NCBI RefSeq assembly: GCF_000374165.1
Contig: NZ_KB893723.1
Coordinates: 36,848 to 100,847 of the forward strand
Reading direction: 5' to 3'
Length of the DNA: 64,000 bases
From: Parafrankia elaeagni
GTDB lineage: Bacteria > Actinomycetota > Actinomycetes > Frankiales > Frankiaceae
The position numbers and the translations under genes are program-made. Under the pieces are notes generated by a model. The model saw only the letters and a list, made by a program, of their open reading frames with translations, was not told the origin of the DNA and did no database searches. The stretch's first letter is position 1. Every line of letters begins with the position of its first letter. This document shows, in pieces, positions 5,065-12,041 of this stretch.

Positions 5065-5170
5065 CCTCAGGCATAATCTGTCGGTCAGCCACGGGGACGT
5101 CCATCTGGCCGGGCTGTGCGTAACGCCGCCGGTGTCCCTCTGTGGTATTGGATTGCCTGTGGGGGAATTG

Positions 5171-6934
5171 ATGGTCGTTGCGCAGAGATTGTCAAAAGGT
5201 GCCAACACGGCGGTTGCCGCGGAGACCGTCCGCGCTGTGGTTTCCTCTGCGTCCGGCCCGTCCCTCGATGTCTGCGCCGTCCTGGTGACCAGCGCGGGCC
5301 AGGTCCGCTCCGACGACGACTTCGTTTTCTACAACCAGCCGCGCCACCGGTCCGGCGCCGTCAGCCTCGCGACCGGCGGCGCGGACGGTTCCGCCGGCAC
5401 CGGGGGAACCCTGACCATCGCGACCGGGCGGATCGAGGCCGAGATCGCCACGGTGGTGATCGCCGGCTCGGTCGACGACGGCACGTTCGCCGGAGTCGGC
5501 GGGCTGGTCCTCCAGGTCTGCGACGAGGACGGCCGGCTGCTCGCCGAGTTCGCGCCGGACACCGCGGAACCGGTCACCACCATGGTCTTCGGCGAGCTGT
5601 ACCGGCGGGCAACGGGCTGGAAGTTCCGCGCGGTCGGCCAGGGCTGGGACAGCGGCCTGGCCGGCCTGGCCAGAAGCTTCGGGATCTCCGTCGAGGAGCC
5701 GGAGGACGCCCCGGCCGGGTCCGCCGCACCGCAGCGCGGCGCACCTGCGCCCGCCACACCTGCACCCGCCACACGGGGGACAGCCGGCCCGGGACCCGCT
5801 GTGCCGCCCGTGCCCGCTGTGCCGCCGGGACGGGTTCTGCCGCCCATGCCCGCCCAGCCGTTCGGCGGCGGCGCCCAGCGCCGCGCCGACTGGTATCCCG
5901 ACCCGGAGGCGGGCGGCGGTCTGCGGTGGTGGGACGGCCACACCTGGACCGCGCAGACCCGAGGGCAGTTCACCGAATCCGACACCACCTGCGGACGCTG
6001 CGGCGCCGCGAAACGCCGCCGCCTCTTTCTCGGGCCGGTGCCCTGCGCGCCCTGCGAGGACGCGATCCGCAGCATTCTCGCGGACTGGCACCGCCGGCTC
6101 GCCGCGGGTATCGACGCCGGCCCGGGAACATCCTCTCTCGAGGATTTCTGGGCCGAACTGCGTTTCCAGCGCGTCCCCGAGGCCGCCGGCCAGGAGGTGT
6201 TCCAGTCCGTGGCGCTGGGCTACCTTCAGCGGCTTGTCACGTTCGCCTTCGCCGACGAGATCATCGAAGAGCACGAGCTCACCCTCTTCGAGGACGAGGT
6301 CCGCCGCCTGGGCATCGGGCACCCCGCGGTCGGGATGATGCGTGAGCGGCTGCAGCGCGGCCTCGATCTCTCCCGCATCCGCAACGGCGAGCTGCCCCGG
6401 GTGACGGTACCGACCCTGCACCTCGACCTGGACGAGATCGTTCACCTGGATGTGAGTGTGGTGCAGGTTCGCCACCTCGCCAGCGGCCCTCGGCACACCC
6501 CTGGACGTCTCGTCGCCAGTAACCGCAAGCTCCGTTTTCTCGCCCAGACCGGTGCGGGCACGGAACTCGCCTGGGCAAAGGTGGTCGCTGTCGCCGGGAA
6601 CTACGGAACCGTCGACATCTCGGCGACGACGGCCCGCGGCGGCGGCATCTACCGCGTCGACGACCCGGAGTACGCGGCGGCCGTCCTCTCCGGTGTGCTG
6701 CGCGTCGCGCGGCGGCTGGTGATCGCACCCCGCGGACGCGACAGTCGTGCCGTTCCGCAGGCGGTGAAGGCGGAGGTCTGGCAGCGTGACAGAGGCGCCT
6801 GCGTGCAGTGCAGCGCGACCGAGTACCTGGAGTTCGACCACGTCATCCCGCACAGCAGAGGTGGCGCGACCAGTGTGAACAACCTCCAGCTGCTGTGCCG
6901 CCGCTGCAACCTGGAGAAGGGCGCGCGGATCTGA
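5171..6934 (+). CDS. TerD/DUF2510/TerB-like/HNH multidomain protein
   Basis: 587 residues from the ATG at 5171, chosen because GGGGGA lies 4 bases upstream; an in-frame GTG at 5132 has no such site. In order: a TerD/stress-protein domain (about 1-177, Ca-binding type), a Pro/Ala linker (178-237), a DUF2510 module (about 240-262, DWYPDPE and WWDGHTW), a zinc-ribbon-like CxxC pair (274-277 and 292-295), a helical region resembling TerB, a beta-rich region with a PH/GRAM-like look (about 420-500), and an HNH nuclease domain (544-587; CVQC, FDHVIPHS, CRRC). Cytosolic, no signal peptide. Ter proteins are tied to membrane stress and phage resistance; the HNH end suggests DNA cleavage. The combined function is unknown. 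Confidence 0.82.
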   Translation: MVVAQRLSKGANTAVAAETVRAVVSSASGPSLDVCAVLVTSAGQVRSDDDFVFYNQPRHRSGAVSLATGGADGSAGTGGTLTIATGRIEAEIATVVIAGSVDDGTFAGVGGLVLQVCDEDGRLLAEFAPDTAEPVTTMVFGELYRRATGWKFRAVGQGWDSGLAGLARSFGISVEEPEDAPAGSAAPQRGAPAPATPAPATRGTAGPGPAVPPVPAVPPGRVLPPMPAQPFGGGAQRRADWYPDPEAGGGLRWWDGHTWTAQTRGQFTESDTTCGRCGAAKRRRLFLGPVPCAPCEDAIRSILADWHRRLAAGIDAGPGTSSLEDFWAELRFQRVPEAAGQEVFQSVALGYLQRLVTFAFADEIIEEHELTLFEDEVRRLGIGHPAVGMMRERLQRGLDLSRIRNGELPRVTVPTLHLDLDEIVHLDVSVVQVRHLASGPRHTPGRLVASNRKLRFLAQTGAGTELAWAKVVAVAGNYGTVDISATTARGGGIYRVDDPEYAAAVLSGVLRVARRLVIAPRGRDSRAVPQAVKAEVWQRDRGACVQCSATEYLEFDHVIPHSRGGATSVNNLQLLCRRCNLEKGARI

Positions 6935-8889: not shown

Positions 8890-10113
8890 TTGCTCTTCGT
8901 CGAGCATGGCCTGTCACCGGCCGCTGTCTCGTCGCTGTTCGCGCTGTGGTCGCTCACGGCGTTCCTCACCGAGGTTCCCTCGGGCGTGCTGGCAGACCTG
9001 GTGCCGCGCCGGCTGCTGCTGGTCTTCTCTCCGCTGCTGACAGCCGCCGGGTTCGCCCTCTGGACCCTGGCACCTGGCTTCGGTGCTTTCGCCGCCGGGT
9101 TCGTGCTGTGGGGAATCGGCGGGTCGCTGCGGTCGGGCACCTGGCAGGCCTACATCCACGCCGAGCTCACGGCGCTGGGCCGGGTGGACGCCTACCCCCG
9201 GCTGACAGGCCGCGCTGAGGCCGTCGGCACCATGTCAGCGCTGGTCGCGGCTGTGGCGGCAGGCCCGGTGCTGGCCGTGGGCGGATTCGTCACGGTGGGG
9301 TTGGCGAGCGTCGCCGCACCTCTGATGGCCGCTGCTCTCGCCCTGGCCCTGCCCCACACCCGCACCACCATGACCGCTGCCGGGCCTGGCGGGCCTGCCG
9401 GGCCTGCCGGGCCTGGCGAGGCCTGCGACGCGGCGGACGGTGGCCGGGATGCGTGTTCGAGCGTCGGCGGGGAGCAGGAAACAGGGTCGCCTCGGGTTCT
9501 CCGCCAGGGCTTGGCGGCTCTGCGCCGCTCGGCGGCGACACGGGTTGCCGTCGCGATGGTGGCCGGCCTGGCAGCCATCCTCACGCTCGACGAGTACCTG
9601 CCCCTGCTCGTCGCCGACACGGGACTCCCACCGTCCCTCGTCCCCGCCGGTTACGGGATCATGCTTGCCGGTATCGCCGTCGGCGCCTGGCTGGCCGATC
9701 GCGGAACCCGCCACCCGGGTCGGGTACTGGCCGCCGGGGGATGCGCCCTGGCTGTCGGTGCGCTCAGCGCCACGCCTGTCGGGCTGGTCGGTGTGGCGGT
9801 CGCGTTCGGGGTGCTGCAGTGGGCGGCGGTGCAGGCCGACACCCGGTTGCAACAGGTCGTTCCGGATTCGTCCCGGGCGACGGTCACCTCGCTCGCCGGG
9901 TCCGTGTCCGAGATCGCCTCGGTGGGGGTGTTCGGTTTCTGGGCCGCGGGATCGGTGTGGGCGGGCCCGACGATGCTGTTCGGCTGCGCCGGTCTGCCGG
10001 TGCTCCTGCTGGCCGGTACGTGGCGTCGTTCCAGCAGCCGGCCGGTTCGCGCCGCCATTCGTTGTTGCACGGTTCGTCTCAAGCGTGGAGCGAATCGATC
10101 CACGAAAAGGTGA
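8890..10113 (+). CDS. MFS transporter (5' end doubtful)
   Basis: 407 residues from the TTG at 8890, with about 11-12 hydrophobic helices split by a low-complexity Gly/Pro/Ala loop (about residues 165-185), the usual two-bundle plan of major facilitator exporters. The TTG is probably not the real start. The same frame is open from 8794 and encodes 32 further residues of typical MFS N-terminus (ARRLYAYAACEDAVLLYPLY), but this extension has no ATG, GTG or TTG, only a CTG at 8836. Another frame just upstream encodes a plausible acidic N-terminus (about 8771-8815), so a 1-base frameshift near 8815 is possible. Substrate unknown. The next gene block, the RiPP candidate, begins 100 bases downstream on the same strand. 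Confidence 0.75.
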   Translation: MLFVEHGLSPAAVSSLFALWSLTAFLTEVPSGVLADLVPRRLLLVFSPLLTAAGFALWTLAPGFGAFAAGFVLWGIGGSLRSGTWQAYIHAELTALGRVDAYPRLTGRAEAVGTMSALVAAVAAGPVLAVGGFVTVGLASVAAPLMAAALALALPHTRTTMTAAGPGGPAGPAGPGEACDAADGGRDACSSVGGEQETGSPRVLRQGLAALRRSAATRVAVAMVAGLAAILTLDEYLPLLVADTGLPPSLVPAGYGIMLAGIAVGAWLADRGTRHPGRVLAAGGCALAVGALSATPVGLVGVAVAFGVLQWAAVQADTRLQQVVPDSSRATVTSLAGSVSEIASVGVFGFWAAGSVWAGPTMLFGCAGLPVLLLAGTWRRSSSRPVRAAIRCCTVRLKRGANRSTKR

Positions 10114-10148
10114 CAGGTCGGCCTCGACATGTTCGGGCCGAAACTCAT

Positions 10149-10166
10149 CTGCGCCCATGGGCGCAG
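10149..10166. promoter_or_regulatory. Perfect 18-bp palindrome upstream of the small-ORF pair
   Basis: CTGCGCCCATGGGCGCAG, located 36 bases after the MFS stop and 47 bases before the 44-codon ORF. It could be an operator or part of a terminator hairpin; there is no T-run after it. The role is not known. Confidence 0.45.
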
Positions 10167-10212
10167 GGTGATGAACCCTTTCTGAACCTGCGCTGAAACG
10201 GGTGGGGAGACC

Positions 10213-10347
10213 ATGGAGGGTGGTGGAAGGAATGCTCCCCGGGCTCTGGCGAACGTGTCCGACCGCGCCGGCCAGGCGAACGGCCGCGACGCGCTCTCGA
10301 CCAAGCGGCCACCGAACAATCGCGAGCCTGGAACGAGGAGGCCATGA
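10213..10347 (+). CDS. 44-residue small ORF translationally coupled to the RiPP precursor candidate
   Basis: ATG at 10213 preceded by GGGGAGA, TGA at 10345-10347. The stop overlaps both ATG codons of the next small ORF (ATGATGA), the arrangement of coupled translation. The peptide is hydrophilic, rich in Arg, Gly, Asn and Pro, has no cysteine and no membrane segment, and I recognise no family. It may be a real small protein of the RiPP locus, or a leader ORF whose job is to set ribosome entry on the precursor. The support is its ribosome site and the overlap, so confidence is moderate. Confidence 0.45.
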   Translation: MEGGGRNAPRALANVSDRAGQANGRDALSTKRPPNNREPGTRRP

Positions 10348-10517
10348 TGAAGCGCAGGTACGAGGCGCCGTCGATCTCGGCGCGAGGATCTTTCCAGGAT
10401 GTCACCGGAACCTTCTTCTGGGGCTGGCACCGGGGCTGGGGCTGGGGCCACGGCTGGGGCAGTCGGGGCGGCTGGGGCTGGAACCGCGGCGGCTGGGGAC
10501 GTGGCTGGGGCTGGTAG
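10344..10517 (+). CDS. Candidate RiPP precursor: lasso-type leader with Trp/Gly-repeat tail
   Basis: 57 residues from the ATG at 10344; a second in-frame ATG at 10347 has AGGAGG 5 bases upstream and is the likelier start. Residues 6-21 fit the leader consensus of lasso precursors recognised by the RRE (YxxPx[LI]xxxGxFxxxT): Y6, P9, I11, G15, F17, T21. From residue 22 the sequence becomes Gly, Trp, Arg and His only, with a few exceptions, and has ten Trp in its last 32 residues, ending GWGW. It has no Asp or Glu at core position 7-9, so a normal lasso macrolactam cannot form. No RRE, protease or cyclase gene is nearby; a P450 follows 246 bases downstream. Product and function are unknown. Confidence 0.7.
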   Translation: MMKRRYEAPSISARGSFQDVTGTFFWGWHRGWGWGHGWGSRGGWGWNRGGWGRGWGW

Positions 10518-10763
10518 GAACCAGCCGAATCGGAGCTCCCCACCTGGAACATCTCCCCGAAGGAAGCGGAGGCCGGGCCCGATCGAGCCGTCCATGGCGG
10601 CGACCAGGTCGGGCGCGGCCTCCGCGCAGTACCCGAACTCCAATCGGACGATGGGAACCGGCCGCCGCCGGGTCGGAGCCGAGCGGTTTCCTCCTGCCCC
10701 GTGCCGTCGGGGCGGGATTCTGGAGCCACCGTGCGGTGCGAACTTCGGTGGAGGAGATGGTCT
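10518..10763 (+). other. Gene-free spacer between RiPP candidate and P450
   Basis: 246 bases with no ORF I can support on the plus strand. On the minus strand about 45 codons (10540-10670) read like protein in one frame but lack a start and a ribosome site. No clear terminator or promoter was seen. Confidence 0.4.
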
Positions 10764-12041
10764 GTGGCCACGGTGAGCGGCGCGGAGACGTCCACGGTCG
10801 GGGAGACATCCACGGTCGGCCTCGGCGGGCTGGTGGGCGCGATGACGGCGACCCGCCTTGCGGACCCCTATCCGCGCTACCGGGAGTTCCGGGAGGCTGC
10901 CGCCTTCGTGCCCGACGAGATGGCCGGCCGCACGATCACGCTGGTGACCCGTCTTGCCGAGGCGTCGGCGGTGCTCGCCCATCCGGCGTCCGGGCACGGG
11001 TACGGCGCCGGCATCAGCTACCGCGGGATCGCCGAGGACGGGCTGGGCTCGCTGCTGCGCGCCGACCCGCCCGACCACACCCGCCTGCGGCGCCTGGTCG
11101 GGCGGGCATTCACCCCGGCCGTCATCGAAGCCCTCGTCCCGGAGATCACCTCCGTGGCGCACACCCTGCTCGACCAGGCGATCGACCAGGGCCGGATCGA
11201 CGCCGTCGCCTCCTACGCGCGCCCGCTGCCACTGCGGGTGATGTGCCGGCTGCTCGGCGTCCCGACCGCGGACGAGGAGCTGTTCGGGGGATGGGCGGAC
11301 GCCCTCAGCCGCGGCCTCGACCCGGCCTACCTGCTCACCGCCGCGGACAAGGCCGCCTGCAACACGGCGACGGCCGCGTTCGACGCCTACTTCCGCGACC
11401 TGATCGCCCGGCGCCGCCGAGAACCACGCGCGGACCTGCTCAGCCGCCTCGTGGAGATCCACGACGACGGCGACATGCTCACCGAGCGGGAACTGCTCGA
11501 ACTGTGCACCCTGCTTCTCGTCGCCGGCCACGAGACGACCGTGAACCTCATCAGCGGCGGCATCCTCGCGCTGCTGCGCAACCCCGAGCAGCTGGCGGCC
11601 GTGCGGGCCGATCCGTGGCTGGTCGGCTCCGCCGTCGAGGAGACCCTGCGCCACGACCCGCCGGTACAGTTCATCGCCCGCACCATCCTGCAGGACGCCG
11701 ACATAGCCGGGTACCGGTTCACCCGCGGCGACGGCGCCGTCATCATGATCGGCGCCGCCAACCGCGACCCGGCCGCGTTCGCCGAACCGGACCGCTTCCG
11801 CGCCGCCCGCCACACGAGCTCCGCCGGGACGCGGCGCCACCTCGGGTTCGGCGTCGGCATCCACTACTGCCTCGGCGCGCCGCTGGCCCGGCTGGAGGCG
11901 GACATCGCCTTCCGGGCCCTACTGAACCGGGCGCGCTCCATCACCCTGGCCGACGAATCGCCGGCCGGCGGCGCTCTCATCTACCGCCCGCACATCATCC
12001 TGCGGGGCCTGGCAAACCTCCCGCTCCACCTGTCAGCCTGA
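10764..12041 (+). CDS. Cytochrome P450
   Basis: 425 residues from the GTG at 10764, which has GGAGGAGA 6-7 bases upstream; the next GTG (10773) is also possible. All class signatures are intact: the I-helix AGHETT, the K-helix ExxR (EETLR), and the heme-binding loop FGVGIHYCLGAPLARLE with the ligand cysteine near residue 369. Size and lack of a membrane anchor fit a soluble bacterial class I P450 needing ferredoxin and ferredoxin reductase, which are not encoded nearby. It is the only enzyme gene beside the Trp-rich precursor. P450s cross-link Trp/Tyr side chains in several known RiPP families, so a link is plausible but unproven; it could equally act on another substrate. Confidence 0.93.
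   Translation: MATVSGAETSTVGETSTVGLGGLVGAMTATRLADPYPRYREFREAAAFVPDEMAGRTITLVTRLAEASAVLAHPASGHGYGAGISYRGIAEDGLGSLLRADPPDHTRLRRLVGRAFTPAVIEALVPEITSVAHTLLDQAIDQGRIDAVASYARPLPLRVMCRLLGVPTADEELFGGWADALSRGLDPAYLLTAADKAACNTATAAFDAYFRDLIARRRREPRADLLSRLVEIHDDGDMLTERELLELCTLLLVAGHETTVNLISGGILALLRNPEQLAAVRADPWLVGSAVEETLRHDPPVQFIARTILQDADIAGYRFTRGDGAVIMIGAANRDPAAFAEPDRFRAARHTSSAGTRRHLGFGVGIHYCLGAPLARLEADIAFRALLNRARSITLADESPAGGALIYRPHIILRGLANLPLHLSA

Follow-up and report, generated by a model that had tools for sequence, protein, structure and literature searches.

Atropopeptides and biarylitides are P450-modified Trp/Tyr RiPPs, and VioD hydroxylates an indole in violacein biosynthesis, with a small bis-indole intermediate as its substrate. 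Lasso peptides with split B proteins, e.g., those of the TfuB1 system (PDB 6jx3), have a YxxPx[L/I]xxxGxFxxxT leader with a penultimate Thr, come from genomes with lasso-type B1, B2 and an ABC exporter, and have an acidic ring residue and a cyclase among their defining features. Linear polyphosphorylated peptides (LPPs) of Bacillota are RiPPs made without a cyclase, and their leaders have an RRE-binding motif, [Y/W]xxP, in common with lasso peptides (Popov et al., 2026; PMC13381572). In that report, the LPP leader motif is YxxPxVLxHQxIxFETxxS, and the clustered LPP genes include those for a signal-peptidase-type (SpI) leader peptidase, an HprK-like kinase and an NTP transferase; actinobacterial lasso RREs such as FusB1 are described there as keeping relaxed precursor specificity.

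A stretch of 64,000 nucleotides from Parafrankia elaeagni, hereafter the window, encodes a Trp/Gly-rich (GW) precursor whose leader follows the lasso pattern, in a genome that also has lasso-type B1, B2 and ABC exporter genes. Unlike lasso peptides, the GW peptide has a core of Trp/Gly repeats without an acidic residue at positions 7-9, GW precursor genes are unlinked from B1/B2, and the main B1/B2 locus of genus g1 (7 genomes), to which genome grouping assigns the window genome (G000), lacks a macrolactam cyclase. GW peptides fail these two defining features of the lasso class. With LPPs they share the absence of a cyclase and the [Y/W]xxP motif, but the GW leader, with the motif YEAPSISARGSFQDVT, does not match that of LPPs (PMC13381572), B2 and a flavin monooxygenase take the place of the SpI-type peptidase and the HprK-like kinase/NTP transferase, the hosts are Frankia-type Actinobacteria rather than Bacillota, and the genes are dispersed rather than clustered. 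Among the few neighbors that were domain-scanned, there was no SpI-type peptidase and no HprK-like kinase. The relaxed specificity described for FusB1-like RREs (PMC13381572) would suit action in trans. VioD (3c4a, 8gqr) is the nearest solved relative of the monooxygenase, with 24-26% identity in the structural match, yet the putative substrate of the GW-linked enzyme is a Trp-rich peptide. By description, P450-modified Trp/Tyr RiPPs resemble the window locus in their aromatic core and in the P450 next door, but the GW precursor has a lasso-type leader, a long Gly/Trp repeat core and an unconserved P450 pairing.

We favor, with a probability of roughly 60%, a cyclase-free RiPP family with dispersed precursors: lasso machinery would recognize, trim and export them in trans, and their Trp residues would be oxidized. 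The features of the window that bear on this reading are collected in Table 1.

Table 1. Features at and around the GW precursor, in window coordinates
Feature	Position	Strand	Remarks
MFS transporter	8890..10113	+	5' of precursor; also adjoins the P. colletiae precursor (88%)
Ribosome-binding site AGGAGG	10336..10341	+	5 nt 5' of ATG 10347; direct reading
GW peptide precursor ORF	10344..10517	+	57 codons counted from first ATG; encodes MMKRRYEAPSISARGSFQDVTGTFFWGWHRGWGWGHGWGSRGGWGWNRGGWGRGWGW
Predicted leader MKRRYEAPSISARGSFQDVTG	10347..10409	+	YxxPxIxxxGxFxxxT, Thr at -2
Predicted core TFFWGWHRGWGWGHGWGSRGGWGWNRGGWGRGWGW	10410..10514	+	35 aa: 10 Trp, 14 Gly, zero Asp/Glu
Cytochrome P450	10764..12041 (ORF opens at 10701)	+	PF00067

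Translation began more likely at the second ATG of the frame, 10347, giving 56 aa, since this start is better spaced from AGGAGG and agrees with the start of relatives, many of which have GGAGGA-like sites 5' of the gene. The initial annotation had described a lasso RRE-recognition pattern in the leader, ten Trp in 32 residues with Trp at the end, a core without the lasso Asp/Glu at positions 7-9, and a frame small enough to be overlooked. Re-translation gave the leader pattern exactly as described and the same Trp count (over 32 residues from the first Trp), the core is free of Asp/Glu throughout, and the size limit of a GC-frame caller does leave the precursor out. The position of the Thr points to leader cleavage after T-G. 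In its six frames, the window has a single instance of the strict leader motif followed by 8 or more Trp within 40 residues, and the leader motif was absent from all 200 windows simulated with a first-order Markov model. The curated leader models score the window precursor below their cut-offs (NF033521, about 17.6-17.7 bits against 19; PF19397, 18.8 bits against 22.6); several sibling GW precursors exceed that of NF033521.

The nearest named relative of the window, Parafrankia colletiae Cc1.17, has an orthologue of the precursor with 93% identity, and homologues with a conserved leader, the check proposed in the initial annotation, turned up well beyond this species. A single-sequence search with the window precursor matched 14 of 59 genomes, its own included; a 14-row profile matched 29 of 36 Frankiaceae genomes, again including its own, with some true lasso precursors among the matches. 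When loci were sorted by reading, GW-type precursors were present in 25 of the 36, in genera g1, g5 and g6. The other four profile-positive genomes are G013 and G016, in which the precursor lies inside a cyclase-less operon, and G021 and G028, in which the matches adjoin lasso-locus genes at loci read in part. Given the P. colletiae orthologue and the GW relatives in 25 Frankiaceae genomes, the window ORF is a real gene and not a chance frame. A 222-codon, Pro/Gln-rich ORF on the minus strand (10145-10813), listed by the GC-frame caller, overlaps it, so that the precursor might be the spurious antisense of that gene; this is scarcely credible, since, at many unlinked loci, it is the plus frame that has the conserved leader, the ribosome-binding site and the bias toward synonymous substitutions. 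The minus-strand ORF could be annotated in place of the precursor.

In a profile search across the class (394 genomes, Frankiaceae included), the single match outside Frankiaceae was an ordinary lasso precursor beside a cyclase; the negatives of this search are not firm, because at most the best 16 candidates per genome were scored and the known precursor of G006 was missed. No GW precursor was found on plasmids, and no account of the family was found in the literature, in titles and opening abstracts, with most subscription papers outside reach.

Five leader residues (Tyr, Pro, Gly, Phe and Thr) are invariant across 13 aligned members. Asp or Glu at positions 7-9 is found in none of 43 distinct GW cores, six of which belong to peptides cut by contig ends (L023, L028, L031, L096, L099, L100), and 40 have no acidic residue anywhere in the core. 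All eight precursors found beside a lasso cyclase, one of them (L113) from outside Frankiaceae, have the acidic residue at 7-9; at three further cyclase loci (L072, L077, L079), the leader pattern revealed no precursor. In four of five pairs compared, the differences between GW cores are mostly synonymous, with core pS/pN values of 0.098/0.013, 0.107/0.010, 0.148/0.000 and 0.120/0.000 (small counts; two pairs share a member). The fifth pair, the window precursor and its orthologue, does not clearly do so: the core values of 0.048/0.036 are a weak signal from small counts, and the whole ORFs differ by two synonymous and four non-synonymous changes. Among the GW precursors, one (L084, 2340-2525) consists of repeated GHHGGWGW units, suggestive of metal binding. 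Among the true lasso precursors, five (L029, L032, L034, L074, L075) have a core of the form G-R-[WF]-GWGRDWLWRSF, which resembles the start of some GW cores; after it comes a long Gly-rich tail that contains VIII or AIIIV and in some cases ends in Trp.

The initial annotation had proposed looking elsewhere in the genome for an RRE (PqqD-like) protein and a B2-type protease, and both are encoded on contig C36. The locus (L068) reads BTAD regulator-B1-B2-ABC transporter; with the regulator ending at 8955 and B1 starting at 8957, there is neither precursor nor cyclase between them. B1 scores 104 bits with NF033530 (cut-off 70) and matches TfuB1 (PDB 6jx3) at E 5e-11; B2 scores 109 bits with NF033537 (cut-off 33) and had no match among solved structures. 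B1 (PqqD family) and B2 (transglutaminase-like), both over cut-off, are present in 32 of the 36 Frankiaceae genomes: in 25 of 25 with GW precursors and in 7 of 11 others, counts that are raw for kinship among related genomes. Ordinary lasso clusters, present in many GW genomes, could alone explain B1/B2 there.

The B1/B2 locus is devoid of a cyclase in 11 of the 32 genomes, from three genera: all seven of g1, G026 and G027 of g6, and G013 and G016 of g2. G016, an incomplete draft, has no PF00733 match at all, the contig of G001 ends shortly after B2, and G005 has an additional, separate locus with B1, B2 and C. The B2 motif C[LV]PR[AS]...HAWVE is kept at all 11 cyclase-less loci. The remaining 21 genomes have a PF00733 match alongside, and in several of them full regulator-C-B1-B2-ABC operons are seen. 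In G027 (L076), a leaderless remnant, GGGGVIIIGGGGGGW, lies between regulator and B1 and is apparently the tail of a decayed lasso precursor. The two g2 genomes have cyclase-less regulator-A-B1-B2-ABC operons with precursors of their own (L082 8694-8867 and L119 8473-8622), whose cores are aromatic or Arg/Phe-rich, with much Tyr, Phe and Arg; that of G013 contains acidic residues, one of them at position 7. Across the seven g1 genomes, NF033521 gives ten matches above cut-off, all of them GW precursors; two of the ten, both from G001, may represent a single gene that lies on two contig ends. The model misses some leaders: the window precursor falls below its cut-off of 19, as does a short ORF beside the G005 lasso cyclase (14.9 bits).

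The window genome encodes four PF00733 matches: contig C114 has two within a single frame, and the others, on C1 and C62, score like full-length asparagine synthetases. The C114 frame and PF00733 matches in other genomes (G003:C116, G026:C396, G027:C259) were considered as distant lasso cyclases and rejected, having no resemblance to the Frankiaceae lasso cyclase; no B1, B2 or pattern-matching lasso leader was found at these loci. The lasso-type leader and the Trp/Gly-rich cores of related true lasso precursors (GRWGWGRDWLW...) could suggest that the GW peptide is either a genuine lasso peptide whose ring is unusual or a lasso precursor in decay. Either is very improbable: no GW core has the acidic residue at 7-9, no cyclase accompanies B1/B2 in the window genome and the C114 pair is unlike one, and core change is mostly synonymous in four of the five pairs. 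We reject lasso identity on the core residues and the missing cyclase.

A flavin monooxygenase (PF01494) is encoded in 24 of the 36 Frankiaceae genomes at E up to 1e-30. In 19 of them (G000-G006, G010, G011, G014, G015, G018, G020, G024, G026, G027, G030, G032, G035), it starts about 92-277 bp 3' of a GW precursor on the same strand. The gene of G021, G023 and G025 is at the edge of its contig, with its neighbor cut off. Two genomes are exceptions: G012 has a homologous enzyme (53%) without a precursor and without B1/B2, and G029 has the monooxygenase with only a leaderless Gly-rich frame upstream. In the window genome, the monooxygenase adjoins a paralogous GW precursor on contig C56. Genes flanking the precursor-monooxygenase pair differ among the three genera, and at four loci (L030, L089, L090, L091) two tandem GW precursors lie 5' of a single monooxygenase. 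The VioD-like monooxygenase beside a paralogous precursor is the conserved association of the GW family. A tree of 21 enzymes includes 16 of the 19 GW-adjacent sequences; these make up a single clade (95/99), separate from the G012 enzyme and four outside homologues, and two rows of the tree have long branches. Outside Frankiaceae, 35 genomes have a match to the monooxygenase; none of the 18 loci examined, at 44-49% identity, has the leader or a Gly/Trp peptide nearby, and the Trp-rich frames near these homologues are rich in Arg, Ser or Pro and have no such leader. Five of 25 monooxygenase matches read through one stop codon; at L035, L090, L095 and L116, the frame stays open for 403-441 aa, which places the stop near the gene end, and the fifth match is that of G029.

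By sequence, the nearest solved relative of the monooxygenase is VioD (3c4a, E 3e-36), which also occupies Foldseek ranks 1-4 by fold (model pLDDT 85). Among NCBIfam models, that for the N-terminal half of salicylyl-CoA 5-hydroxylase scores best, above that for VioD, but both stay below their cut-offs. Because these curated cut-offs are unmet and the salicylyl-CoA 5-hydroxylase half outranks VioD, Trp hydroxylation by the monooxygenase is a reasoned guess, and a small-molecule substrate is possible.

The window precursor has no such monooxygenase beside it, and several GW precursors have no oxidase neighbor. The latter fits a non-RiPP reading, in which a Gly/Trp-rich structural, adhesive or metal-binding peptide keeps a lasso leader by descent and is not processed by B1/B2; the cores are of low complexity and vary in length and repeat number, and one (L084) is His-rich. 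We regard this as unlikely, given the invariant leader residues, and because it predicts neither linkage to an aromatic-hydroxylase-like enzyme nor B1/B2 without a cyclase.

In the cyclase-free RiPP reading that we favor, the B1 (RRE) protein of the distant locus would bind the lasso-type leader of the GW precursor, the B2 cysteine protease would remove it, probably after T-G, and the B1-B2-ABC locus would also export the mature product. A core without an acidic residue cannot form a lasso-type lactam ring; instead, Trp residues would be oxidized, before or after B1/B2 processing, in most members by the VioD-like monooxygenase encoded directly downstream. The enzyme beside the C56 precursor could also serve the window peptide in trans. 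On the simplest account, the cyclase would have been lost more than once, with B1, B2 and the exporter retained for their additional work on GW precursors in trans. There is no linkage between GW and B1/B2 loci: in the single contig of G010, the monooxygenase (4.69 Mb) is far from B1/B2 (5.33 Mb). The case for action in trans is therefore one of co-occurrence and of elimination among related genomes of a single family, and the elimination is imperfect because NF033521 misses some leaders. The sequences show the precursor family, its link to the monooxygenase, B1, B2 and ABC genes with no cyclase, and GW peptides as the only above-cut-off lasso leaders of the genus; from these we infer B1/B2 action on GW leaders, Trp hydroxylation, export and a biological role.

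The fuller proposal, which we hold tentatively and at slightly less than even odds, is of a new Frankia-type RiPP family with dispersed Trp/Gly repeat precursors, in which usually one VioD-like monooxygenase per genome would hydroxylate many Trp residues and a B1-B2-ABC locus lacking the cyclase in three genera would process the precursors in trans. The product may be polyhydroxylated, perhaps indole-crosslinked or pigment-like. The frequent position of a sister GW gene beside an indole-hydroxylase-like enzyme suggests a new kind of modified peptide, in a family so far known only from Frankia-type bacteria. If the reading is true, lasso leader machinery in Actinobacteria has become detached from ring formation and acts in trans on scattered precursors, likely together with a peptide-directed tryptophan hydroxylase. 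Genome mining which expects adjacent precursor, B and C genes could miss such systems, and the cyclase-less loci of three genera would be natural experiments on RiPP classes arising from one another.

The initial annotation had asked instead whether a P450 follows such precursors. As a dedicated modifying enzyme, in the manner of other P450 RiPPs, the adjacent P450 would yield a crosslinked or hydroxylated Trp peptide. Its start is 183-246 bp 3' of the precursor, depending on the start chosen, on the same strand; no terminator-like site was found between them, which carries little weight with 0.4 expected by chance in the scan; and the pair is retained in P. colletiae, where the P450 is 94% identical. 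However, the pair is confined to these two close genomes, which share upstream gene order and are two of the five genus genomes with a P450 of at least 70% identity. The orthologues in G001, G004 and G005 (70-74%) have no GW precursor in the surrounding stretches (in G001, 0.9 kb upstream only). Both G001 and G005 do have GW precursors of the subtype seen in the window, but these adjoin a nucleotide-cyclase-domain gene and no P450. The window genome has six P450s matching at E up to 1e-70. The P450 is thus probably not a conserved partner of the GW precursor, a dedicated role for it is unlikely, and we consider it a less likely oxidase for the window peptide than the monooxygenase. Elsewhere in the window, a single plus-strand ORF (5132-6934) joins TerD, DUF2510 and HNH endonuclease domains.
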